Part shown: in pieces, positions 2,446 to 47,296 of the stretch
How the letters are laid out: the number at the start of each line of letters is the position of its first letter
Numbering within the stretch: the first letter of the stretch is position 1
Source of the DNA: Microgenomates group bacterium Gr01-1014_16
Lineage (GTDB): Bacteria; Patescibacteriota; Microgenomatia; CAZETR01; Amesbacteraceae
Length of the DNA stretch: 61,746 nt
Assembly (NCBI GenBank): GCA_007376345.1
Contig: VMGA01000001.1
Coordinates: 1-61,746, forward strand
Direction of reading: 5' to 3'
The notes under the pieces: generated by a model
Databases searched by the model: none
Told to the model about the DNA's origin: nothing
The model's input: the letters and a program-made list of their open reading frames with translations, nothing else
Translations under genes and position numbers: made by a program

Positions 2446-3471
2446 TTATACCCGAGAAAAGGTGTTTTGGGAAATGGAATTGATGATACCCAGGTGTATT
2501 CCCAGAGACAATAAAGATGAGCCGCCGTAGGACAGAAACGGCAGTGTTATGCCGGTAACCGGAGCCAAGCCCATGTTCATGGCAATGTTAATGAAAGTTT
2601 GAAAAGCCATAAGAGCGAGGGATGACAGACAAAAGTATGAAGCTGTAGGATGACCCAGACTTTGAGAAATTTTGTATATTTTCCAAAATAGAATTGAGAA
2701 TAAAGCTAAGACGGCTACGACCCCGACGAAACCCAGTTCTTCGGCTAAGGAAGCAAAAATAAAATCAGTATGTCTTTCCGGGAGAAACCGGAGTTGGGAC
2801 TGGGTCCCATGGCCAAGACCACGGCCTAACAGTTGGCCCGAGCCCACAGCAATTTTGGACTGGATAACGTGGTAGCCCTGATCCAGGGGATCCCTGTAGG
2901 GATTGATGTAAGTTTGCAACCGCTCCCGTTGATAGGGCCGAAGGAGAAAAATGTAGAAGGGGATGGCGAGGAGGGAAATAAAAATAAGGGACAGAGCCAC
3001 GGATTTGAGAGAGAAGCGGGAGAGGAGAATGACTAACCAGCCGGAAAAAATGACCAAACTGGTACCCAAGTCAGGCTGGAAAAAAATAATCAGCCAGGGG
3101 AGAACAAAAGCGGGAAATAAAAAAACGGGGTTGGCAAAAAAGGTGGAGAAAGTGTTTAACAAAAATGGTTTGACTATCTCTGACGGTTGGAGTGTATATT
3201 GGCCTATCTGAAGCCATCTGTTTGCACCACGAGAATCAATTCCAAACAGATACGGAGAAACTAGAAACAATAAGGAAATAATGAATATGGGAAGATGTAA
3301 TGACTTAAGTATTGAATAATCCAGTTTTGAAAAAAATAAAAAAAACGCAATTGAAATGAAGGTAAATAAAAGTTGGTTTGTAAATAAATCCGGAGTGATG
3401 CTGCGTAAAACTAATAGTCCTATTATTGTGAGCAAGAGTGCCGGGAGGGCTAACCACCAGTCGATTTTCAT
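2446..3471 (-). CDS. rodA: SEDS family RodA/FtsW protein
   Basis: Multi-TM; LQPSEIVKPFLL, FQPDLGTSLVIF, GRGLGHGTQSQLRFLPERHTDFIFA, LPFLSYGGSSL. Confidence 0.9.
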   Translation of the reverse strand: MKIDWWLALPALLLTIIGLLVLRSITPDLFTNQLLFTFISIAFFLFFSKLDYSILKSLHLPIFIISLLFLVSPYLFGIDSRGANRWLQIGQYTLQPSEIVKPFLLNTFSTFFANPVFLFPAFVLPWLIIFFQPDLGTSLVIFSGWLVILLSRFSLKSVALSLIFISLLAIPFYIFLLRPYQRERLQTYINPYRDPLDQGYHVIQSKIAVGSGQLLGRGLGHGTQSQLRFLPERHTDFIFASLAEELGFVGVVAVLALFSILFWKIYKISQSLGHPTASYFCLSSLALMAFQTFINIAMNMGLAPVTGITLPFLSYGGSSLLSLGIHLGIINSISQNTFSRV

Positions 3472-6284
3472 AACAATTCTACTTTGAGCTCCGATCCATA
3501 CTCGATTTTATCTGCCAAAGTATGACGTTTAAGATCTTCAATAGATACCGGGTGTGATGGTAATACTAAATTTATTTTTTGATCAAGCCTGGCCCCTAAT
3601 TCTTTGCGCTTGTCCTGGATTTGGCGAATAAGTTCGCGGGTTTGGCCTTCGGCGATTAATAAATCATCTAACTTTAAATCAAGTTCGACTGATAATTCGT
3701 CTGATTTTTCAAATATAATGTTTTTAATATTAAGTTCGTCGAGAATTAATTTTTCTAATTGGATATTGGATATTGAATTTTGAACATTGACGGTCAGAGA
3801 CCTTAAGGGTTGGCGGACTTTGATGCCGGCGGCTTTGCGCGCGGACAAGCCTAATTCAACAATTTTGCGGACGGTTCGCATTTGCCCGATGAGTTTAAAA
3901 TCGATTTTGCCTACTTTCGGCCAACTGGAAAGGTGGACGGATGTTTCGCCAGTCAGGTTGCGATATATTTCTTCGGATAGATAAGGGGTGAAAGGAGCCA
4001 ATAAAGAACTCAAAGTGCAAAGTGCAAAGTGCAAAACCGAATAACAAGTTTGTTTGTCCGGCCCGTTTGGAGCTGACGGGCCGACGCGGTCGCGGGAACG
4101 GCGGACGTACCAAAGTGACAGGTCATTAACGAAATTTTCGATGGCATGGGAAGCGGTGTAAGCGTCGTATTTATCAAGTGATTTAGTAACGACGGAAATT
4201 GTTTGATTTAAGCGAGAAAGAATCCATTGATCCAAGACTGATTTAGGAGAGGAAATTTTGTTGGGAGAATACTTATCTATATTGGAGTAGGTGACGAAGA
4301 AGTTGTAAATATTCCAGAGCATGAGGTGGAACTGACGACGAGTATCGTTGGCCAGCTCCCAACCGAACAATAAGTTTTGAGTGGGATTTTGGGTAGCAAA
4401 GATCCAACGCATAACGTCTACTCCAGCTTTGTCCGCCCCTTCGTCGAAAGAAATGTAAGTTTTGGGGTTACTTTTGTGCATAATTTCTCCATCCGTCCCG
4501 CAGGCTGATGCAAATCCTAGCACGGTTTTCATTGAGTTGGTTTTGGCCAGGACGGTGCTCATGGCGATGAGGGAATAAAACCAGTTTTTGAACTGACCCG
4601 GAAACGATTCGGTAATAAAATCGGCCGGGAACCAATCGGGCGGGAGTGTAGAAAACGAAACTATGCCAGCGTCCAGCCAGGGGTTGCCGACGTCAGAAAC
4701 CCGGCTAACAACGTTTCCACATTGGGAACATTTGGTTTTTACCTCATCGATCCAAGGGCGGTGAGGAGAATTACCATCGAATTTGTCCCACCCGGTAACA
4801 CATTTGGATTTCAACTCTTCTTTGGAACCAATAACTTCAAAGTGGTGACATGAAGTGCATTCGTAAATCGGCAAGGCCAGGCCCCAATAACGGTTTTTTT
4901 TGGAAATAAGCCAGTCATGCATGTTTTTGAGCCAGTCCAGCTCTCGGTCTAACCCAAAAGCCGGCAGCCATTTGATTTTTTTGGCTATCGCCATCATCTG
5001 TTTCCTGAGAGACTTACCTGTGTCGTCCGGTTTGTCCATACTGATATACCATTCGTCAGCGACTTTCCAAACCAGTTCGGTTTTACAGCGCCAGCAGGCC
5101 GGGTACCTGTGAGTATAATGTTCAGTTTTCAATGTCCAATGTTCAGTTTTGAGATAGTCAAGAATTAGTTCGGGGTGTTTTTTGGCGTTGAGACCGGTGA
5201 GATCACCCAGGCCAGGTAAGTAGTCCGCGTTGTCCGCGATTACGGGAACCATAGGTAGATCAAGCTTTTGACCTAGCTTGAAATCTTCTTCTCCGGCGGA
5301 GACGGCGGTGTGTACTAAGCCGGTACCTTCCTGGCTATTGATAGGCATTATTTTGGAATCGGTGGCAACCACTGTATGAAAAAGCCTATGAGAGGCTGCT
5401 TTTTGAACTGCTTCCAAATTGTCGTATGGACCGGTGTATTTTAGTCCGACTAATTTTTTACCAGAAAGAGTTTTTTGAATAGGAGAAGACGGGAATAACC
5501 TGGATGTAGCATCTGAAGCAACCCAACAGTTTTCCACAAGTGAATAATCAAAGGACGGTTCGACAGCCACGGCAATATTGGCCGGAATCGTCCAGGGAGT
5601 GGTTGTCCAAACCAGTAAAAATTCGCCCGGATTGTTTACAAGGGGAAACTTGAGATATACTGACTCGTGGATTAATTCCTGATAATCTTCGGTGAGAATC
5701 TCGTGTTGTGAAATAGCCGTTTCACAGCGGGGACACCAGGGGACGGAGTCATGGCCTTTGTAAAGCCAACCCCTTTCCCAACAAACTTTGAGGAAATGCC
5801 AGATTGCGTAATTATTGGCATCGGACATGGTGTAATACGAGTTTTCCCAGTCCATGAAGTAGCCCAGTCTTTTGGATTGCTCCGCCTGAATGGCGGAGTA
5901 TTTCATAACCCGGTCTTTGCATTTATTGACGAATTTGTCTACTCCATAGGTTTCAATGTCTTTTTTGGATTTGAAGCCCAAGTCTTTTTCGACTTCGACT
6001 TCTACCCAAAGACCTTGACAGTCAAAGCCATTTTGAAAACGTTGTTTATAGCCTTTGAGATTAAAATACCGCTGCCAGAGGTCTTTGTAAGTCCGGCCCC
6101 AGGCATGGTGGACACCCATGGGGTTGTTGGCGGTTATCGGGCCGTCCAAAAACGAAAACTTCTTTTTGGAGTTGTCGTTTTTGTGCAAATACTTATCCAC
6201 TACACCCGACTCATACCACCACTTGAGAATCTCTTTTTCCAAAGCGGGAAAATCAACCTGCGAAGTGATTGGTTTGAAGGCCAT
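3468..6284 (-). CDS. ileS: Isoleucyl-tRNA synthetase
   Basis: Class I synthetase layout; GPITANNPMGVHHAWGRTYKD, WTTTPWTIPANIAVAV, GEIMHKSNPKTY in KMSKS position. Confidence 0.92.
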   Translation of the reverse strand: MAFKPITSQVDFPALEKEILKWWYESGVVDKYLHKNDNSKKKFSFLDGPITANNPMGVHHAWGRTYKDLWQRYFNLKGYKQRFQNGFDCQGLWVEVEVEKDLGFKSKKDIETYGVDKFVNKCKDRVMKYSAIQAEQSKRLGYFMDWENSYYTMSDANNYAIWHFLKVCWERGWLYKGHDSVPWCPRCETAISQHEILTEDYQELIHESVYLKFPLVNNPGEFLLVWTTTPWTIPANIAVAVEPSFDYSLVENCWVASDATSRLFPSSPIQKTLSGKKLVGLKYTGPYDNLEAVQKAASHRLFHTVVATDSKIMPINSQEGTGLVHTAVSAGEEDFKLGQKLDLPMVPVIADNADYLPGLGDLTGLNAKKHPELILDYLKTEHWTLKTEHYTHRYPACWRCKTELVWKVADEWYISMDKPDDTGKSLRKQMMAIAKKIKWLPAFGLDRELDWLKNMHDWLISKKNRYWGLALPIYECTSCHHFEVIGSKEELKSKCVTGWDKFDGNSPHRPWIDEVKTKCSQCGNVVSRVSDVGNPWLDAGIVSFSTLPPDWFPADFITESFPGQFKNWFYSLIAMSTVLAKTNSMKTVLGFASACGTDGEIMHKSNPKTYISFDEGADKAGVDVMRWIFATQNPTQNLLFGWELANDTRRQFHLMLWNIYNFFVTYSNIDKYSPNKISSPKSVLDQWILSRLNQTISVVTKSLDKYDAYTASHAIENFVNDLSLWYVRRSRDRVGPSAPNGPDKQTCYSVLHFALCTLSSLLAPFTPYLSEEIYRNLTGETSVHLSSWPKVGKIDFKLIGQMRTVRKIVELGLSARKAAGIKVRQPLRSLTVNVQNSISNIQLEKLILDELNIKNIIFEKSDELSVELDLKLDDLLIAEGQTRELIRQIQDKRKELGARLDQKINLVLPSHPVSIEDLKRHTLADKIEYGSELKVELL
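3759..3793. repeat. Heptamer microrepeat TTGGATA TTGGATA TTGAATT TTGAACA TTGACGG
   Basis: Five 7-mers inside ileS. Confidence 0.8.
4007..4041. repeat. Heptamer microrepeat AACTCAA (AGTGCAA)x3 AACCGAA
   Basis: Five 7-mers inside ileS. Confidence 0.8.
5118..5152. repeat. Heptamer microrepeat ATGTTCA GTTTTCA ATGTCCA ATGTTCA GTTTTGA
   Basis: Five 7-mers inside ileS; encodes LKTEHWTLKTEHYT. Confidence 0.8.
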
Positions 6285-6303
6285 TAAATGATTTTACATC
6301 AAA

Positions 6304-9076: not shown

Positions 9077-10092
9077 GTAAATTGCTCTTTAATTAATTGA
9101 AGTAGGTTTTTTGTTCCGTCGAGCGGTAGGTTTAATGGTACGGGGTGGAGTGCTAATGCCGATTTGATTGAAGAAACGAGGGTTGACGGGGATAATAGGT
9201 TCTGGGGCAAAATTATCGCTTGGGACGAAAGCGCTTGGGCGTTTTTGAGTTGTTCGTTGTGTGAGACCCAGGGAATAGGTATAAGAACACATCTCTTGCT
9301 TAGAACGCCTAACTCGTAAGTGATGTGGGCTCCGGCTCGGCTGATCACAACGGCTGCCTCTTTGATAGAATTTATGGCTTTGGCTGAATCGTAATCAAAT
9401 GTTTCATAGTTAGCATGTTTTATGGATCGGGCAATTTTTATGTCCCTGAATCCGGTTTGGTGAATAACTTGATATTTTTTTAACAATTTCGGAAGCGCCG
9501 AAAAAACGGCTTTATTAATAACATGAGAACCGTTTTTCCCCCCCGTGATGTAAATGAGGTTTCGGGTTTGGGATTTTGAAGCAGTTATAATCTCCGGCCT
9601 AATCGGCAAGCCTGTAACAATCGTTTTGTCTTTGGGATAGTACCGGATACTTTCAGGCCATGATACAGCAATTTTTTTAACAAAATAGGATATGAGTTTA
9701 TTGGCTAGCCCCGCGACTACGGTTTGTTCATGAGTAATGCTGGGAATTCCTAAAAGCCAACCGGAAATTACGGTGGGGACGGCCAGATAGCCCCCGAAGG
9801 AAACGATGCCGTCGGGACGGTGTAGCAGTAACAGTAACAGTGACTGGAGGAAGCCGACGGGGATGAGAATCAATTTCAGTGGATTATAGGTGCGATAGAA
9901 TTTGCCGGCGTAGAGATTACAAAATTTGAAGCCGGCGGCGGTAACTTCACGATATTCGGCCGAATCGGAAGAATCGCCCCACAGGGAATGGCGATGGCCG
10001 AACCAGATAATTTGCCAGTCTTCTTTTTGCAAAGCAATGGCTACTTCCAGGGCGCTAGTGTGATGGCCTCCGGTAAAAACTAGTTTTTTCAT
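9073..10092 (-). CDS. murG: UDP-GlcNAc:undecaprenyl-PP-MurNAc-pentapeptide GlcNAc transferase
   Basis: TGGHHTSALEVA, SFGGYLAVPTVISGWLLGIPSITHEQ, SRAGAHITYEL. Confidence 0.9.
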   Translation of the reverse strand: MKKLVFTGGHHTSALEVAIALQKEDWQIIWFGHRHSLWGDSSDSAEYREVTAAGFKFCNLYAGKFYRTYNPLKLILIPVGFLQSLLLLLLHRPDGIVSFGGYLAVPTVISGWLLGIPSITHEQTVVAGLANKLISYFVKKIAVSWPESIRYYPKDKTIVTGLPIRPEIITASKSQTRNLIYITGGKNGSHVINKAVFSALPKLLKKYQVIHQTGFRDIKIARSIKHANYETFDYDSAKAINSIKEAAVVISRAGAHITYELGVLSKRCVLIPIPWVSHNEQLKNAQALSSQAIILPQNLLSPSTLVSSIKSALALHPVPLNLPLDGTKNLLQLIKEQFT

Positions 10093-11146
10093 GGCGGGAA
10101 ATACTGATGAGGATACCTGAAGCTAGCAAAAGGACGACCAGGGAAGAACCGCCATATGAAACAAGGGGGAGCGGGACGCCGGTTAAGGGGGTGAGGGCAA
10201 CTTGGGAGGAAAGGTTGAGAAATGTTTGGATACCGAGCCAAGAGGAGATACCGGCAGCCAGATTGCGGGTAAACGGCGACGGAGCGGCGGCGGAAGCTTG
10301 AAACCCGAGATGGATAAGCAGCCAAAAAGCGGATAACACCAGCAGGGTGCCGAGCAAGCCAAATTCTTCCCCGATGACGGCAAAAATCGAGTCGGTGGTG
10401 ACTTCGGGCAAAAATTCGTATTTTTGACGAGACTGACCCAGCCCGCGGCCGAACAAGCCCCCTGAACCCAAACTAATGAGGGCCTGTCGAACCTGATAGG
10501 AAGAACCTAAGGGATCGTGACTGGAATCAAAATAAGTTCTCAAGCGGGCTAATCTATAAGGTGAGATGATTATAAACAGGGTTAGACAGGCAATAGCAAG
10601 GGGGACTAGGCCGAAAAAATGGAGCCACCGGCCACCGGCTACGAAATAAACCGCCAGGCCAATGCCAGCGAGAATGAGGGCCGTTCCCAAATCGGGCTGG
10701 AACAAAATGAGCCCGACTGGAAGAGCGAGGAGAACAAGAAATTGGAGAAACCGGGAGGCGGGCGGTGCCTTAAGAAAAGCTGACAAATACATGATGAGAG
10801 AGAGTTTGGCCAGCTCTGCCGGTTGAAAGGAAAACAAACCAAGATCCAACCAGCGACGGGCACCTAAAAGCTTGAGTCCTATGCCAGGAATGAGAACCAC
10901 CAGAAGTAGAATTAAACTGGTTATATAAAGGAAAGGAGCCGGTTTTTCCCAATACGATGGGTTGATCTTGGAAACAATGACCAGTCCCACCAGACCGAGC
11001 GCGGTCCAGACAGATTGGAGCTTGAGATAAAACCAACGGTCGGAAAAGTCGCGTTGAGCGGTGACGACCGAGGAACTAGCGACCATAATCAGGCCAAAAA
11101 TGGCTAAGCTGACGATCAGGACTACCAGAAGTCTTACGCTAGCCAT
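10055..11146 (-). CDS. ftsW: SEDS family FtsW
   Basis: FQPAELAKLSLIMYLSAF, FQPDLGTALILAG, GLFGRGLGQSRQKYEFLPEVTTDSIFAVIGEE; position in dcw cluster. Confidence 0.92.
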   Translation of the reverse strand: MASVRLLVVLIVSLAIFGLIMVASSSVVTAQRDFSDRWFYLKLQSVWTALGLVGLVIVSKINPSYWEKPAPFLYITSLILLLVVLIPGIGLKLLGARRWLDLGLFSFQPAELAKLSLIMYLSAFLKAPPASRFLQFLVLLALPVGLILFQPDLGTALILAGIGLAVYFVAGGRWLHFFGLVPLAIACLTLFIIISPYRLARLRTYFDSSHDPLGSSYQVRQALISLGSGGLFGRGLGQSRQKYEFLPEVTTDSIFAVIGEEFGLLGTLLVLSAFWLLIHLGFQASAAAPSPFTRNLAAGISSWLGIQTFLNLSSQVALTPLTGVPLPLVSYGGSSLVVLLLASGILISISRHEKTSFYRRPSH

Positions 11147-12165
11147 AAACCTAATATTGAGAGAATAACTCCGATAAGCCAGGCCCGTTGGACTATTTTT
11201 GGTTCCGGCCAACCGCGTATCTGAAGCAGGTGATGCAGCGGCGCAATGTGGAATAACCGACGGTGGAGAAGCCTAAGAGAAAGCGATTGCAGAAGCGAGG
11301 ATGACAGATCCAGAACAAAAAGTCCGCCGATGACAAAAAGTACGACTGGTTTGCCTAAAAGCAATGAAATAACAGCGAGAGTGGAACCAAAGGAGATGGC
11401 CCCGGCGTTACCTAGCCACAAACGGGCGGGAAAAATGTTGAAGTATAAGAAGGCTAATAGCGAGCCAAGCCAAAGGGCAATAAACACCGAAAGCGGAGTA
11501 TCCAGGGAGGCAACGGAAATGACCCAGAACGCAAGCAGGCAAATAAGCAATAAACCGGAGGCGAGGCCATCCAGGCCATCCGTATAATCAAAGGCGGTCG
11601 TAAAAAAAAATATGATGAGCGCGGAGACCGGGACATACCACCAACCAAGATGCCAAATCCCGACCACGGGCAAATTGAGGGCGGTGATGTGTAAGTTTTG
11701 GAACAACAACAGACCACAAAATAAAGACAGGATAAATTTCAGAAGCTGTTTGGAAGACTTCGGAATTATGGGGATTGAATCTTGGGACGAGGGAAAAATT
11801 TTGCGCAGATCGTCGTAAAGGCCGATTAAACCAAAAGAAATAAAGGTAAAAAAAACGATGTTCAGCTCTTCTTTGAGGGGAAAATTGCTGGAAATGTATA
11901 CGCCGCTTTTCGAGAGAAGAGGAAATAATAATAAATAGAGTAGGCTGACTAAAAAAATCATTAATATTCCTCCCCCAACCGGAGTGCCGGCTTTCCAAAT
12001 GTGGAGAGAGTGCAAGGCTGTGGAAGCCGGAGAAGATTCACGGGTTAGTCCGGAAGTATCAGAACGATGGGTGATACGAAGCCGGTAAAGCAGATCAATA
12101 AAAGGCACAATGGCCAAAGCGGTGATTATGAATGAAAAGAGAAGAAGTCCGAGATACAAGGCCAT
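11134..12165 (-). CDS. mraY: Phospho-MurNAc-pentapeptide transferase
   Basis: TPVGGGILM, FDYTDGLDGLASG, RLWLGNAGAISFGSTLA; ATG at 12165 preferred. Confidence 0.9.
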   Translation of the reverse strand: MALYLGLLLFSFIITALAIVPFIDLLYRLRITHRSDTSGLTRESSPASTALHSLHIWKAGTPVGGGILMIFLVSLLYLLLFPLLSKSGVYISSNFPLKEELNIVFFTFISFGLIGLYDDLRKIFPSSQDSIPIIPKSSKQLLKFILSLFCGLLLFQNLHITALNLPVVGIWHLGWWYVPVSALIIFFFTTAFDYTDGLDGLASGLLLICLLAFWVISVASLDTPLSVFIALWLGSLLAFLYFNIFPARLWLGNAGAISFGSTLAVISLLLGKPVVLFVIGGLFVLDLSSSLLQSLSLRLLHRRLFHIAPLHHLLQIRGWPEPKIVQRAWLIGVILSILGLWLA

Positions 12166-12166
12166 A

Positions 12167-12194
12167 ATATTCAATGTTCAATATTCAATGTTCA
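12167..12194. repeat. Heptamer microrepeat (ATATTCA ATGTTCA)x2
   Basis: Four 7-mers spanning the dgkA stop/mraY start junction. Confidence 0.8.
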
Positions 12195-12540
12195 ATAACT
12201 TGGGAATAAATATTATCAGGGCGATGATAACGGCGCCGATGGCGTAGACCAACATGGCAGCAGCGGATACATCTTTGGCTATTTTGGCTTTAGAGTGGAA
12301 TTGGTCAGTAATTAGATCAACGGTTGACTCTATGGCCGTGTTGATTAACTCAATTACTAACCCAAAACTAATTGTGACGGCTAAAATCAGCCACTCGGGA
12401 GTGGAAATTTGATAAGAGTATCCAGCTACAATAGCGACAGCGGAAAGAAGCAAGTGAATGGCGAAGTTGGGTTGGGTAGTTAAAGCATAAAACAGTCCGG
12501 CGAGGGCGTGATAGAAAGAAACAGTGTGGCGGCGAAGCAT
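12178..12540 (-). CDS. dgkA: Diacylglycerol kinase family (DgkA/undecaprenol kinase-like)
   Basis: NFAIHLLLSAVAIVAGY, EWLILAVTISFGLVIELINTAIESTVDLIT, AKDVSAAAMLV. Confidence 0.9.
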   Translation of the reverse strand: MLRRHTVSFYHALAGLFYALTTQPNFAIHLLLSAVAIVAGYSYQISTPEWLILAVTISFGLVIELINTAIESTVDLITDQFHSKAKIAKDVSAAAMLVYAIGAVIIALIIFIPKLLNIEY

Positions 12541-12555
12541 GAGATGATTATATCC

Positions 12556-16360: not shown

Positions 16361-17620
16361 TTAGTTTAACTTCGAAGCAAAGAAAGAGTCAAGTTGGGAG
16401 ACGGAAACACGCTCCTGCTGAGCTGTATCTCGATCACGGACGGTCACTGTATCGTCCTCTAATGTCTGATAATCAACAGTGACGCACCAGGGGGTGCCGA
16501 TTTCATCCTGGGCATAATATCTTTTGCCGATGTTGCCGCGATCATCGAAAGTAACAGTAAGTGTAACTGTAACAGATTTAAGATTTTTATAAATTTCCTT
16601 AGCCTTATTTACTAAGTTTTCTTTATTGGCGACCAAGGGAAATACGGCAACTTTGTATGGGGCGAGTTTGGGGTGGAGCTTCAAAACCACCCTGTCTCCC
16701 ACTTCGGAATAGGAGTCAAGTAAAAAGAATAGTGTTGCCCGATCTACTCCGCCCGAAGTTTCAATAACCCAGGGCGTGTAATCTTTGTATGTTAGTTTGT
16801 GCCGGGACAGATCCCAGTCGCCGCGATGATGAATACCTTCAAATTCTTTCCAGCCGAAAGGCGAATTGTACTCAATGTCCTCTGCTTTTCTAGCATAGTG
16901 AGCTCGCTCATCTAAAGAGTGCTCTCGAAAACGCAAATTTTCTTTTTTAATACCTAATTTCTCATACCATTCAATACGCATTTGACGCCAATAGAGAAAC
17001 CATCGTTCGGCTTCGTTTTCGTCTGGTTTCACAAAAAATTCCAATTCCATTTGTTCAAACTCGCGACTTCTGAATGTGAAATTGCCCGGAGTAATTTCGT
17101 TTCTAAATGCTTTGCCGATTTGGGCTATGCCGAAGGGGATTTCTACACGAGAAGAGTCAACAACATTTTTAAAGTTTACAAATACGCCTTGGGTAATTTC
17201 GCCACGCAAATAGGTTTTTGTTTTAGGTTCGGTTGAGCCCAGATAAACCTCGGTCAAGAGATTAAAAATTTTTGGTTCTGTAAGCTGCCCATCACAATCG
17301 GGGCATTGACTGCCGACTAGTTGATCGGCACGGAAGCGATGATGACAAGATTTACATTCGACGAGGGGGTCGGTAAAGGCTTGGGTGTGGCCGGAGGCTT
17401 CCCAAACAGTTGGGTTCATGATGATGGCGGCGTCCAGACCTACCACGTCATTCCTTTGGTAAACCATCGATTTCCACCATTCTTTTTTGATATTGTTTTT
17501 AAGCTCTACTCCTAGTGGACCATAATCCCAAAACCCCTGCAATCCTCCATAAATTTCGGAGCCGGGGTAGATAAATCCTCTTCTTTTACACAAACTGACA
17601 ATCTTTTCCATTAGATCCAT
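16361..17620 (-). CDS. glyS: Glycyl-tRNA synthetase (homodimeric type)
   Basis: CKRRGFIYPGSEIYGG, GIAQIGKAFRNEITPGNFTFRSREFEQMELEFF, class II motifs. Confidence 0.95.
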   Translation of the reverse strand: MDLMEKIVSLCKRRGFIYPGSEIYGGLQGFWDYGPLGVELKNNIKKEWWKSMVYQRNDVVGLDAAIIMNPTVWEASGHTQAFTDPLVECKSCHHRFRADQLVGSQCPDCDGQLTEPKIFNLLTEVYLGSTEPKTKTYLRGEITQGVFVNFKNVVDSSRVEIPFGIAQIGKAFRNEITPGNFTFRSREFEQMELEFFVKPDENEAERWFLYWRQMRIEWYEKLGIKKENLRFREHSLDERAHYARKAEDIEYNSPFGWKEFEGIHHRGDWDLSRHKLTYKDYTPWVIETSGGVDRATLFFLLDSYSEVGDRVVLKLHPKLAPYKVAVFPLVANKENLVNKAKEIYKNLKSVTVTLTVTFDDRGNIGKRYYAQDEIGTPWCVTVDYQTLEDDTVTVRDRDTAQQERVSVSQLDSFFASKLN

Positions 17621-17624
17621 GTTG

Positions 17625-18170
17625 TTATTTTAACTTATTTAAGAGTTTTGGGGAATGGAGGGGGCGGTTAACTATACTTTCAACATACTTCCAAATATTT
17701 CCTGTAAATTGTTTAGCTTTGGGCCAGTAACCTAGTTCGATTAAAATATTCAAGATCCAAGATTCAAGACTCAATTTCCAGTCGTTTTTGAGAAGTGAGA
17801 TGTGAGATAGAGAGTCTGATAGAATTTCAAAGATTTCGGGGTGGGGTTGGTGGTCGGGAGTGAGTTTGTCGATGACTTCGGCCAGTTGGTAAGCCAGGGT
17901 GACACGGCCGAGGTGTTTGCGCCAAGAAGAATATGATTCTATTAATATAACTTCGGTTATAGTATCGATTTCTCCCCTACCCTGGACGGCGTGGAATTTG
18001 ACGAGATTAAACAATTCCAGAAGCCCCGCCCGCTTTGAAGTGGGTTTGCGCAGACCTTTGGCGATAGCGGTAATTTTTCCATGGGTTTTGGAAAAAATGG
18101 TGATCAGCTTGCCGGCCTCGCCAATATTGCTGCGTTTGATAACGATACCTTCATCGGTGTAAGAATACAT
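17625..18170 (-). CDS. recO: DNA repair protein RecO
   Basis: YTDEGIVIKRSNIGEAGKLITIFSKTHGKITAIAKGLRKPTSKR. Confidence 0.9.
   Translation of the reverse strand: MYSYTDEGIVIKRSNIGEAGKLITIFSKTHGKITAIAKGLRKPTSKRAGLLELFNLVKFHAVQGRGEIDTITEVILIESYSSWRKHLGRVTLAYQLAEVIDKLTPDHQPHPEIFEILSDSLSHISLLKNDWKLSLESWILNILIELGYWPKAKQFTGNIWKYVESIVNRPLHSPKLLNKLK
17746..17780. repeat. Heptamer microrepeat ATATTCA AGATCCA AGATTCA AGACTCA ATTTCCA
   Basis: Five 7-mers inside recO. Confidence 0.8.
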
Positions 18171-40325: not shown

Positions 40326-40366
40326 GTAAACGATTTTATCAGTTTTTTGAGTGTATACTTCTCACA

Positions 40367-42124
40367 ATGTGCGGAATAGCCGGAAAGATATGTTTTGGCG
40401 GAAGAACTATCAGAGAAGAGGAACTTTTGGATATGTCTGGCAAGATAATCCATCGCGGCCCTGATGATGAAGGAATATTTATTTCAAAGGACAAACGGGT
40501 GGGGTTGGTCAGCCGGAGGTTGGCAATAGTAGATTTGTCTAATAAGGGACACCAACCAATGGAATATAAAAATCGATATTGGATTGTATTTAACGGTGAA
40601 ATTTATAACTTCCAACAGGAGGCGAAGCGTCTTGAAAAAATGGGGTATAAATTCCACTCGCAATCGGACACGGAGGTGATTTTGGCACTGTATGATGAAT
40701 ATGGAACAGGTTGCTTGGAATACTTGAGAGGAATGTTTGCTTTTGCCATCTATGACGCAAAGAACAAAACAGTCTTTTTGGCCAGAGATAGAATGGGGGT
40801 GAAACCGTTGAAATATTACTGGGACGGGAAAACATTTATATTCGCTTCCGAACTGAAAGCAATACTTACACAGCGGGAGGTGAAGAGACATCCCGATTGG
40901 CTGGCAATACATTACTATTTGACCTTGGGATATTGTCCGGCTCCAATGACGGGTTTTGAAAAAATATACAAGTTGGAACCGGCAAGTTATTTACTCATTA
41001 ATTTGAGATCCTGCCAAATCGAGAAGAAAAAATACTGGCATTTGGATTTTAATAAAAAGTTGAATTTATCTGAAGGAGAATGGAAAGAAAGAATTTTGAC
41101 TGAATTGGAGACCGCTACCAAATTGAGAATGATTTCAGATGTGCCAGTCGGCGCGTTTTTGTCGGGAGGAGTGGATTCGAGCGCGGTGGTGGCTCTGATG
41201 GCAAAAAACTCATCCAGACCTATTAAAACCTTTACCATAGGCTTTGAGGATCCAGACGACGACGAGAGACAATACGCTAAAACAATTGCCAAAAAATTTG
41301 GGACAGACCACTTGGAGTTGGTGGCCAGCCCGCAATCGCTGGAGTTACTACCCGAAGTTGTCAGACAATACGAGGAACCTTTTGCTGATGGCAGCGCGAT
41401 AATTGCATTTATGATTAGTCGATTGGCGGGAAAATTTGTCAAAGTAATACTGAATGGAGACGGAAGCGATGAGAGTTTTTGCGGGTATTTGCGGCACAAT
41501 AAATTGCAAAGGGACTATTGGCTGGGTAAATTCAACAAATTTATGCCCATAGCCGGGATGGCCGGTATGGGGTGGCCGAGGATGAAAAGATTAATAGACA
41601 GGCAAGACACTGACATCAGAGAAAGGTACTTGGAATATAACTGCTACTTCACCAAATCGGAAAAATTGAAAATATATGACCAGGAATCGGATAACGGCGT
41701 GTATGAGCTGTGGAAGGCGCGGTGCGATGAAGCCCGGGTTGATGATGTACGAGATCAGCTGTTGTATGCCGATTTGACTTATTATTTTCCGGATAGCCAA
41801 TTGACTAAAGTTGACATTGCTAGCATGGCAGCCAGCCTCGAGGCCAGATCTCCATTTACCGATTACAAAATGATGGAATTAGCCGCTAGTATCCCCTACA
41901 ACTTAAAGGTTAGGAACGGGGTAAATAAGTATATCCTCAAAAAATCACTCGAGGGACTGGTACCGAAAGAAAACTTGTACCGGAAAAAAATGGGTTTTTC
42001 CATACCATTGGTCAAATGGTTCGGCGGGGAATTGAATGGATATACTTTTTCGCAAATAAACCCCAAACTCTGGAATCTATTGACTCTGGACTTGTGGTAT
42101 GGAGAGTATTTTGGAAGTCAGTAG
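40367..42124 (+). CDS. asnB: Asparagine synthase (glutamine-hydrolyzing)
   Basis: MCGIAGK (Cys2 nucleophile) sets start; AFLSGGVDSSAVVALM; start corrected from 40295. Confidence 0.95.
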   Translation: MCGIAGKICFGGRTIREEELLDMSGKIIHRGPDDEGIFISKDKRVGLVSRRLAIVDLSNKGHQPMEYKNRYWIVFNGEIYNFQQEAKRLEKMGYKFHSQSDTEVILALYDEYGTGCLEYLRGMFAFAIYDAKNKTVFLARDRMGVKPLKYYWDGKTFIFASELKAILTQREVKRHPDWLAIHYYLTLGYCPAPMTGFEKIYKLEPASYLLINLRSCQIEKKKYWHLDFNKKLNLSEGEWKERILTELETATKLRMISDVPVGAFLSGGVDSSAVVALMAKNSSRPIKTFTIGFEDPDDDERQYAKTIAKKFGTDHLELVASPQSLELLPEVVRQYEEPFADGSAIIAFMISRLAGKFVKVILNGDGSDESFCGYLRHNKLQRDYWLGKFNKFMPIAGMAGMGWPRMKRLIDRQDTDIRERYLEYNCYFTKSEKLKIYDQESDNGVYELWKARCDEARVDDVRDQLLYADLTYYFPDSQLTKVDIASMAASLEARSPFTDYKMMELAASIPYNLKVRNGVNKYILKKSLEGLVPKENLYRKKMGFSIPLVKWFGGELNGYTFSQINPKLWNLLTLDLWYGEYFGSQ

Positions 42125-42145
42125 CCGCTATGTTAAAATAAAGCC

Positions 42146-42460
42146 GTGAGTCCACATCTTCAGTCAGAAGTCACCAGCATCACTAGGCAGCTTATTAGCA
42201 AGTATCGCCCGGTCAAAATTATCCTTTTTGGCTCCGGCGCAAGAAACGATCCCCACGCTAACGACTTGGATTTTTTAATCATCAAAAACGACGTACCCAA
42301 CCGCAGTCTTGACCGGATGCGCCAGGTTCGCTCCCTCGTTCAAAAAAAGGCCGCCGCAGATTTTCTGATCATGACTGAGTTCGAACTTCAGGAACGGATC
42401 AGTTTGCAGGATCCATTTGCCCTGCAAATAACTCAGCACGGCCAGCTTCTTTATGGCTAA
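42146..42460 (+). CDS. MNT-family minimal nucleotidyltransferase (MntA-like)
   Basis: KIILFGSGARNDPHANDLDFLII (GSx9DxD). Confidence 0.85.
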   Translation: MSPHLQSEVTSITRQLISKYRPVKIILFGSGARNDPHANDLDFLIIKNDVPNRSLDRMRQVRSLVQKKAAADFLIMTEFELQERISLQDPFALQITQHGQLLYG

Positions 42461-43259
42461 ACCAAAAATTGTCAACGAATGGATTAAGTTGGCTGACGAA
42501 GATTACGGCTTTGCCTGTTCCAATTTGTCAGACCCCGATGCAATCTACTTCGGTTTTATTTGTTTCCACTTCCAGCAGTCGGCCGAAAAGTATTTCAAAG
42601 CGTATATCGTTGCCAAAAGCCTAGAATTCACCAAAATCCACGATCTGGACTCTCTGTGTCAGATTTGCCTGGCGGACAATCCCAAATTCGATGAACTTAA
42701 AGACGAATGTCTTTTCCTCAACGACTTCTACGTCGCCACCCGTTACCCGGTCACAGTCCCTCCGTCCTTTTCTCGCGTGGAGGCGCAGCAAGCAAAAACA
42801 GCCGTGGAAAAAATATCCAAATTGGTAAAAACTTTCCTTGTAGACCCTAAAAATTCCGATATCAGTAAAGCCGCGGGGATAATTATTGTGGATCGAAAAT
42901 TACTGGTCGAAAAAGATTTCGATAAAGAATTTTACATCGCCCCTGGTGGTAAGTTAGATCCCGGTGAAACTCCAAAACAGGCCCTCGTCAGAGAGCTCAA
43001 AGAAGAATTTCTAATTGACGTCAGCGAGAATGATCTGGAAGAATTTGGTTCTTTCTCCGCACCGTCTTCCGGTCAGGAACACCGGACTATTCATATGTAC
43101 TGTTTTATAGTCAAAAAGTGTTGGGGAGAAATCTCCCTTGGCCATAAAGTGGAAAAGCTTCTTTGGCTCACTTCACAGATTCCCGACGGCATAAAAGTAG
43201 GGTCGATTTTTGAGCACGAAGTCATCCCCCGCCTCAAAGCCCAAAATCTAATAGACTGA
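42453..43259 (+). CDS. HEPN domain - NUDIX hydrolase fusion protein
   Basis: HEPN: FICFHFQQSAEKYFKAYIVAKSLEFTKIHDLDSLC; NUDIX box GKLDPGETPKQALVRELKEEF; overlaps MNT gene by 8 nt. Confidence 0.85.
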   Translation: MAKPKIVNEWIKLADEDYGFACSNLSDPDAIYFGFICFHFQQSAEKYFKAYIVAKSLEFTKIHDLDSLCQICLADNPKFDELKDECLFLNDFYVATRYPVTVPPSFSRVEAQQAKTAVEKISKLVKTFLVDPKNSDISKAAGIIIVDRKLLVEKDFDKEFYIAPGGKLDPGETPKQALVRELKEEFLIDVSENDLEEFGSFSAPSSGQEHRTIHMYCFIVKKCWGEISLGHKVEKLLWLTSQIPDGIKVGSIFEHEVIPRLKAQNLID

Positions 43260-43269
43260 TTTTCAACAG

Positions 43270-44097
43270 TCAGTAGCCGTTGGTTGATGAGTGAAATAAC
43301 TTTCTTTTAACCAATTTGAAAGGGGATTGGATCAAGGTAGCCAGCAGATATCCCGGACTTCTCGGCTTCCAAGGCGAAGGAATTATGTGGGGGTGCGGTA
43401 AATAAAATGGCTTGGGATAAATGAAATCCCGGGAAAAGGGAATGCCCAAATCAAACTTGCGCTTGAATGAACGTTTCATAACGCCACCGTCATGAGAAGA
43501 GCGGATGAGATGGGTAGCATGCAAATACGGCAGATCTAAAAAGTGCCCTCGAAACGGTTTGCGATCTTGGATGAGAGTATTTGCATCATCGAATAACCCT
43601 TGTTGGCCGTGGGGTTTGCTGAAGTGGAGTTTTGGTAACAATTTTAAGTTTACAAATCTGATAGTTATGTGGCCGGAATACTCATCAATTTTGTATCTTC
43701 CGGCTGATTTATCCTGGTAGTGAAACACGTCCCCTACCAGGTTGTAATAGGGGTGGATGAGATATTCATAAGGGTTCGCTGATTTGTTTATGAAACTTAT
43801 GGTTTGGCGAATTGATGCTTCCGGCCAGATTTCGTCACCGTCTAATATTAATAGCCAGTCCGATTTTGTGGCCTCCAACATTTCCTGACGGATGGTAGTA
43901 AGTGCATCGGGGTCAATGTGGGTGGAGTGAAGAAATTTGATTTTGGGACTGGAAATTGTCTTTATAATTTTAATTGTATTGTCGGTGGATCCGGTATCCC
44001 AAACTATGATTTCGTCAACGAAACTCAAAACCGAATTTAGGGAATGCCAGATCCAGTTCTGTTCATTTTTAACTATGGAATGGGCGGTTATTTTCAT
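43270..44097 (-). CDS. GT2 family glycosyltransferase
   Basis: MKITAHSIVKNEQNWIWHSLNSVLSFVDEIIVWDTGSTDNT. Confidence 0.9.
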   Translation of the reverse strand: MKITAHSIVKNEQNWIWHSLNSVLSFVDEIIVWDTGSTDNTIKIIKTISSPKIKFLHSTHIDPDALTTIRQEMLEATKSDWLLILDGDEIWPEASIRQTISFINKSANPYEYLIHPYYNLVGDVFHYQDKSAGRYKIDEYSGHITIRFVNLKLLPKLHFSKPHGQQGLFDDANTLIQDRKPFRGHFLDLPYLHATHLIRSSHDGGVMKRSFKRKFDLGIPFSRDFIYPKPFYLPHPHIIPSPWKPRSPGYLLATLIQSPFKLVKRKLFHSSTNGY

Positions 44098-44099
44098 AT

Positions 44100-44191
44100 T
44101 AATACCCACGACCTTACGGTCGGGGTATTATATCGCTGTCGGACTTCGTCCGATTTTTGGCAACCCCCGATTTAACGATCGGGGTTTTGCC
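44100..44191. repeat. Three consecutive hairpins
   Basis: 44100-44130 TAATACCCaCGACC-TTAC-GGTCGGGGTATTA; 44139-44153 TCGGAC-TTC-GTCCGA; 44159-44191 GGCAA..CCCCGAT..ATCGGGG..TTGCC. Confidence 0.8.
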
Positions 44192-46634: not shown

Positions 46635-47108
46635 TTAGTTTATTGCAGAGCTGACTTTCTCGTTAATTGAAATTAATTTAGGATAATCTAAAAATACACT
46701 GACATTTCTGAAAAAGCCCATGGAACCAAGAATACCTGTTTGTTGAGGAAGGGATATGGGAAAACCTGACTTTGTGAACCCCATGATATCCTTATACTCT
46801 ATTGGTTCATGTTTGTTTTCGGGATCTTCGACTTTAATTCCTACCCTGTGATAATAAATTTTGATTGAACTGCCACCAATTCCATAGGTAAGGAATGGTT
46901 TTCCGATTGCAATATCGTAACCCAAATATTCGCCAATTTCGCTGGTAAAAAATGTCGTGTCCGATCCTGAATCTATTAGGCAGTACGCATCAATTGTTCT
47001 CGACTCGTTCTTTGGATTGAAGATGGAGATATTTATCCAGGGAACTATCCTGTTTATTTTCTGGTGTTTGGCATTAAACCCAAACGCCAGTATATATTCG
47101 AAGTCCAT
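46635..47108 (-). CDS. Retropepsin-like aspartic protease
   Basis: [13 protein letters not shown] (DSG) and GILGSMGFF (ILG). Confidence 0.75.
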
Positions 47109-47110
47109 AC

Positions 47111-47296
47111 TTAACCCGCAAAGTTGACATCAAATCGCCCTACCTTGAAAACAATTGGGTTGGATATTTTTTCTTTCCTGGCCTTGGACATCGCAATTTC
47201 AAGTGTTTTTCCGCTTCCAACTAGTGACTTGTCTTTGGGTGAAAGAGCGACCCATCCACTTTTTACTTTTGTTAATATCTTAGTTAAATCTGTCAC
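47111..47296 (-). CDS. DUF5678-like small protein
   Basis: SGWVALSPKDKSLVGSGKTLEIAMSKARKEKISNPIVFKV; GTG start. Confidence 0.65.
   Translation of the reverse strand: MTDLTKILTKVKSGWVALSPKDKSLVGSGKTLEIAMSKARKEKISNPIVFKVGRFDVNFAG

Follow-up and report, generated by a model that had tools for sequence, protein, structure and literature searches.

A two-gene module, in which a minimal nucleotidyltransferase (MNT) is followed by a HEPN domain fused to a NUDIX hydrolase domain, has been inserted into the genome of Microgenomates group bacterium Gr01-1014_16 as one piece, NUDIX domain included, since a direct repeat brackets the NUDIX domain together with the MNT and HEPN and the same site is empty in related genomes. 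The parts of this module are ordinary; their combination is new. It lies in a window of 61,746 nt (the whole stretch of DNA that was analysed), drawn from a genome of 1.03 Mb in 69 contigs, and its motifs place it among the class II HEPN/MNT modules, a group that is very common and biochemically blank.

Organization of the locus

The features of the locus are collected in Table 1. Mapping of reading frames and Pfam domains confirmed the position of the module as given in a first-pass annotation of this DNA (made from the letters alone), as well as the order of its genes, MNT and then HEPN-NUDIX, and the 8-nt overlap between them. The same annotation had described the pair as a plus-strand module in a mostly minus-strand locus; the strand is correct, but the module is not isolated on it, for asnB is also on the plus strand and ends 21 nt before the MNT start. 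Read-through from asnB into the module may therefore occur.

Table 1. Coordinates of the module, its flanking genes and associated sites within the window
Feature	Position	Strand	Details
MNT, minimal nucleotidyltransferase	42146..42460	+	104 aa, GTG start; PF18765 and PF01909 matches
HEPN-NUDIX fusion protein	42453..43259	+	268 aa, one unbroken ORF; two Pfam domains; AlphaFold pLDDT 83.7
HEPN domain (class II, HEPN-T)	42453..42842	+	PF05168, alignment A1, fold matches
NUDIX hydrolase domain, Nudix box intact	42843..43256	+	PF00293, fold matches, alignment A3
asnB-like asparagine synthase, upstream flank	40364..42124	+	PF00733 2.1e-83; start codon uncertain
Glycosyltransferase-like gene, convergent downstream flank	43270..44109	-	ORF; directly convergent with asnB, module absent, in L254, L255, L260, L270, L271
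Promoter-like site TTGGAA, 17 nt, extended -10 TG-n-TAAAAT	42111..42139	+	6 nt before MNT GTG
Direct repeat copy 1 (AGTCAGTAGCCG)	42116..42127	+	Contains asnB stop codon; repeat search, 12/12 perfect, spacing 1152
Direct repeat copy 2 (AGTCAGTAGCCG)	43268..43279	+	Contains stop codon of minus-strand glycosyltransferase

Elsewhere in the window, on the minus strand, an ORF at 46635-47108 contains a DSGS motif, matches no Pfam family, and looks like a retropepsin-type protease; it adjoins a DUF5678-like ORF (47111-47296, also minus) that falls just under the Pfam cut-off.

Domains and active sites

The profile searches proposed as a check in the earlier annotation all returned matches above their curated cut-offs: Polbeta PF18765 (3.2e-7) and NTP_transf_2 PF01909 (2.7e-5) for the MNT, PF05168 for residues 8-126 of the fusion protein (E 2.6e-19 to 1.3e-18; 67.7 bits versus a cut-off of 22), and PF00293 for residues 139-222 (E 8e-12 to 3.6e-11). 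Structure prediction, proposed there for the same purpose, gave both folds: AlphaFold models the HEPN half as a five-helix bundle and the NUDIX half as a Nudix alpha/beta fold, with a linker of about 6 residues between them. A model of the HEPN half by itself (pLDDT 79.9) matches the folds of 1ufb, 1wol, the HEPN domain of human sacsin, 1o3u and 2hsb, and matches the HepT toxin SO_3166 more weakly.

The MNT displays the motif G29-S30-x9-D40-x-D42, together with D72 (alignment A2), and thus provides the GSx10DxD-type neighbour of a class II module, with a spacing of 9 rather than 10. In the HEPN half, conservation was read from an alignment (A1) of 17 MNT-linked homologues, across which W10, A14, D17, Q42, E45, K46, K49, H63, L65, Y98 and P99 are invariant and Y93 and R97 are kept in at least 90%; the fused HEPN retains every one of these residues. 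The RX4-6H motif is present in none of the 17, and in the fused protein R97 is followed by YPVTVP, which holds no histidine. The first-pass annotation was therefore correct in finding this canonical RNase motif missing after YVATRYP. The gap does not mark a special toxin: the absence is family-wide, and class II HEPN domains are known for it (PMC7641770, PMC3710099).

Class II modules have been described as carrying a PF05168 HEPN domain that lacks RX4HXY and has a conserved tyrosine, beside an MNT in which GSX10DXD is kept, with no biochemistry reported (PMC7641770, Yao et al. 2020); experiments on such modules were likewise not found in the literature searched. The protein described here agrees with that description, having no RX4HXY and, in Y98 and Y93, conserved tyrosines. 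HEPN-T proteins conserve an alternative histidine, located between helices 2 and 3, that may restore an active site (PMC3710099, Anantharaman et al. 2013), and H63 is, to judge from its position, probably that histidine.

The NUDIX half contains an intact Nudix box of the Gx5Ex7REUxEE form (G166-x5-E172-x7-R180-E181-x2-E184-E185), with all of the catalytic glutamates present; the residue that follows the final EE is Leu instead of the usual Gly, at a position that also deviates in standalone relatives (alignment A3). Foldseek matched this half to MutT, Orf135 and BdRppH (target TM approximately 0.7-0.8). Its nearest relatives are standalone proteins with unrelated gene neighbours, apart from any HEPN/MNT genes (L004, L005 and L011; 52-62% identical over aligned columns), with another in Vibrio campbellii (41%), and the C-terminal motif VGSIFEHEVIPRLK is common to the fused domain and the standalone relatives. 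Relative to L004 and L005 (about 57% identical), dN is 0.35-0.37 and dS is saturated; with dN at that level and both the reading frame and the Nudix box intact, the comparison suggests that the fused NUDIX has been maintained. None of the NCBIfam equivalog cut-offs is reached by the NUDIX domain. PADLOC assigns it to the phage-defence-candidate model PDC-S07, and the MNT to PDC-S09, assignments that are suggestive only.

Insertion between two convergent genes

The 12-bp repeat that brackets the module (AGTCAGTAGCCG) is perfect and lies at the junction of asnB and the glycosyltransferase gene; none of 4000 placements drawn at random within the window, with the geometry kept, produced such a repeat. 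When the flanks are rejoined at a single repeat copy, asnB and the glycosyltransferase gene become convergent, with overlapping stop codons, and the two genes are found directly convergent, with nothing between them, at loci from the same family (L254 and L255) and the same class (L260, L270 and L271). At another locus (L264) a methyltransferase-like gene lies between them.

This geometry bears directly on a neutral account of the fusion, according to which a class II HEPN/MNT module, once inserted, came to run on into a generic house-cleaning NUDIX gene through loss of its stop codon, leaving two independent halves whose union has no special meaning. The repeat encloses the NUDIX domain with the MNT and HEPN, rather than stopping at the end of the HEPN, which places the NUDIX domain in the unit at the time of insertion; the retention of both active sites also argues against neutrality. 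The points in favour of that account are taken up below.

Flanking repeats are a recurrent property of such modules. Exact flank-to-flank repeats of at least 12 bp were found in 22 of the 77 related modules with enough flanking sequence (two or three of these modules share one contig, G040), compared with 9 of 462 same-locus controls (Fisher 1e-13) and 2 of 600 controls from long regions (Fisher 2e-20), or 0.3-2%; errors in the assembly of metagenome-derived genomes are possible for single cases. The repeats of different modules are unrelated in sequence, are 12-48 bp long where exact, and extend up to 121 bp at 83-100% identity (repeat-flanked loci include L110, L102, L018, L112, L155, L061, L147 and L089). 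For ParE/RelE pairs used as a control, repeats of at least 18 bp flanked 2 of 30, versus 19 of the 77 MNT/HEPN modules; there is some excess in ParE/RelE as well, so that the effect may not be exclusive to MNT/HEPN. Inspection by eye of 23 units revealed neither shared ends nor terminal inverted repeats.

Considered as an insertion sequence or transposon, the unit shows a target duplication (the perfect 12-bp repeat, with an empty site in relatives), and neither a transposase nor terminal inverted repeats, the interval between the repeats holding only the MNT and HEPN-NUDIX genes. Taken together, the repeat-flanked MNT/HEPN modules point to cassette insertion that is free of a transposase. A broader and rather improbable proposition is that the HEPN/MNT modules of this host and its small-genome kin are discrete mobile cassettes, each with its own leaderless promoter and no transposase or shared ends, that insert by a hitherto undescribed route, directly duplicating 12 to approximately 120 bp of target sequence, and that this particular one has captured a NUDIX domain acting on the HEPN nucleotidylation cycle.

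Several other loci are worth recording in this context. At L061, an MNT-HEPN pair is flanked by two copies of the pyrG 3' end (1095-1141 and 1853-1899; 47 bp, 85% identical), and the module separates pyrG from a 308-aa gene that contains a NUDIX domain. A second MNT-HEPN pair in the host's own genome (L047, contig C36, approximately 9900-12400) has degenerate copies of MNT and HEPN after it, together with a 22-bp repeat, AAATCCTAACCCCTCCCCACAC, and looks like repeated insertion and decay. A viral contig carries a class II MNT-HEPN pair (L158:2664-3363) with phage tail genes on one side and the tape measure gene on the other, in the manner of a phage moron.

Promoter-like site and predicted leaderless first genes

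The first-pass annotation had proposed that the module possesses its own -10 element (TAAAAT, 42134-42139) 6 nt before the GTG of the MNT, and comparison across related modules bears this out: among modules that begin with the MNT gene, 16 of 55 have a -10 exactly 6 nt upstream of the first gene, as do 9 of 26 that begin with HEPN, against a background of about 1.4 for each other offset (P ~4e-12). Shine-Dalgarno-like sites are rare in these first genes (4 of 55 and 2 of 26, respectively), versus 40 of 56 second genes, only 2 of which have a -10 at 6 nt. The MNT-HEPN-NUDIX transcript is accordingly predicted to be leaderless. The same -10 spacing is seen elsewhere in the host genome, with examples in the window near 3471-6293, 12181-12555 and 16364-17629, and because it recurs in other host genes, leaderless first genes look like a habit of the lineage.

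Distribution of the fusion

A survey for other HEPN-NUDIX fusions next to MNT genes, also proposed at the outset, uncovered no second example in 113 distinct HEPN genes (taken from 374 genomes within the class and 380 within the phylum), nor any in plasmids, phages, IMG/VR or, as far as close relatives are concerned, 84,980 species genomes, and the fusion is absent from the papers searched. An MNT adjoins 104 of the 113 sampled HEPN relatives. A separate NUDIX gene lies directly downstream of the HEPN in 2 of 111 cases (G010, locus L090/L044; and G437, locus L061, where the NUDIX is outside the flanking repeat). With roughly 10 NUDIX domains per 1-Mb genome, or about 1% of genes, this is the rate of adjacency given by chance; these being the only two candidates, a regular MNT-HEPN-NUDIX operon was rejected, and recurrence lends no support to a functional link of NUDIX with HEPN/MNT. 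Long HEPN frames at L058, L069, L071 and L072 were also considered as candidate fusions and proved to be upstream extensions of the frame or HEPN-MNT fusions, with no NUDIX domain.

In G010 (L044:5515-6764) the MNT, HEPN and NUDIX are three adjacent, co-directional genes, in which the NUDIX is of another subfamily and follows a gap of about 46 nt; an A-rich 12-mer, AAAAAAGCAGAA, upstream of the MNT and at the NUDIX end is possibly a flanking repeat, although a weak one. In L069:1120-1923, L071:1108-1920 and L072:1135-1929 (minus strand), HEPN and MNT share one ORF of approximately 265-271 aa, with the HEPN domain N-terminal.

Several points favour the neutral account: no second fusion exists among the 113 HEPN genes, NUDIX adjacency is not enriched, relatives of the NUDIX domain stand alone (for example L042, between gatA and a contig end), and a linker of about 6 residues fits the simple loss of a stop codon. 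Weighed against the position of the repeat and the two preserved active sites, the account is possible, if on the doubtful side.

A proposed mechanism and its alternatives

The preferred reading, which commands belief and doubt in about equal measure, is that the module encodes a HEPN toxin under the control of nucleotidylation, with a MutT-like pyrophosphohydrolase tethered to it; its toxicity, the modification of its tyrosine, and the substrate and role of its NUDIX domain are all put forward as parts of a model. The MNT would use an NTP to nucleotidylate a conserved HEPN tyrosine, with Y98 in the RYP motif as the likeliest target and Y93 as the other candidate, and the nucleotidylated HEPN would stay silent. 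Unmodified HEPN would be the toxic component, probably an RNase that uses R97 and, as its alternative histidine, H63. Beside the MNT/HEPN site, the tethered NUDIX would hydrolyse nucleoside di- or triphosphate compounds; by reducing or cleaning up the nucleotide donor nearby, or by breaking down a nucleotide signal, it might shift the ratio of modified to active HEPN. The NUDIX step is the weakest of this scheme.

The first-pass annotation had envisaged a three-activity system, and three active sites do appear intact; its further idea that the NUDIX domain removes or senses the nucleotidyl modification gained no support. As an eraser, the fused NUDIX would take the nucleotide added by the MNT off the HEPN and so re-arm the toxin. 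Nudix enzymes normally cleave pyrophosphate bonds, and hydrolysis of a Tyr-O-AMP phosphodiester would be atypical; nearly all related modules manage without a NUDIX, and the fused domain is closest to standalone enzymes. The known HEPN modification is just such a tyrosine phosphodiester, removed by snake venom phosphodiesterase, and the phosphodiesterases that remove AMP are yet to be identified (PMC7641770). Even with this vacancy and the physical fusion of the enzyme to the modified partner in its favour, the eraser role is improbable.

Marginally better placed, though still unlikely, is a two-step attack on RNA, in which the HEPN would act as an endonuclease and the NUDIX would strip 5' pyrophosphates or caps, hastening decay of the cut RNA. 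The NUDIX model matches the RNA pyrophosphohydrolase BdRppH, and its profile matches Dcp2 chains; MutT and CTP pyrophosphohydrolases, however, match equally or better, and RNase activity of the HEPN is itself only putative. Least probable of all is a part in the local sugar or polysaccharide pathway, in which the MNT and NUDIX would handle small molecules such as NDP-sugars. Glycosyltransferases abound in the window, and MNT and HEPN were originally regarded as a pair that might bind substrates (PMC3710099), but the unit is an insertion in a conserved asnB/glycosyltransferase junction that is empty in relatives, and related modules reside elsewhere, such as behind pyrG (L061) or in a phage tail region (L158).

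The natural fusion offers a single protein in which one catalytic mutant would probe the nucleotide economy of the module, including how nucleotidylation of the toxin is reversed. The spread of transposase-free modules, in turn, becomes testable through the empty site and the flanking repeats, and the most reusable result is that direct repeats frequently flank HEPN/MNT modules and that an empty site can be demonstrated in this case.

Comparison with known systems

The nucleotidyltransferase resembles HalB of the Hailong system in its polymerase-beta-type fold, with weak profile similarity (15.6 bits for the HalB equivalog NF051895, versus a cut-off of 190); unlike in Hailong, the partner is not of the HalA kind. 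The NUDIX half shares its Nudix box and fold with MutT-like hydrolases (MutT, the CTP pyrophosphohydrolase Orf135, and BdRppH), scores 44 bits versus 97.9 for the MutT 8-oxo-dGTP diphosphatase equivalog TIGR00586, and differs from those enzymes in being fused to a HEPN domain. With the type VII toxin-antitoxin system HepT/MntA (class I; PF01934/PF08780; SO_3166/SO_3165), from which the nucleotidylation model is borrowed, the module has in common its gene order, MNT motif and HEPN fold, whereas its HEPN lacks RX4HXY and its MNT scores 19.4 bits against a cut-off of 60 for the MntA equivalog NF047752. It is like the class II HEPN/MNT modules (PMC3710099, PMC7641770) in its PF05168 domain without RX4HXY, the tyrosine of the RYP motif, the alternative histidine and the upstream, overlapping MNT with GSx(n)DxD, and it differs from them in the C-terminal NUDIX hydrolase that its HEPN carries.
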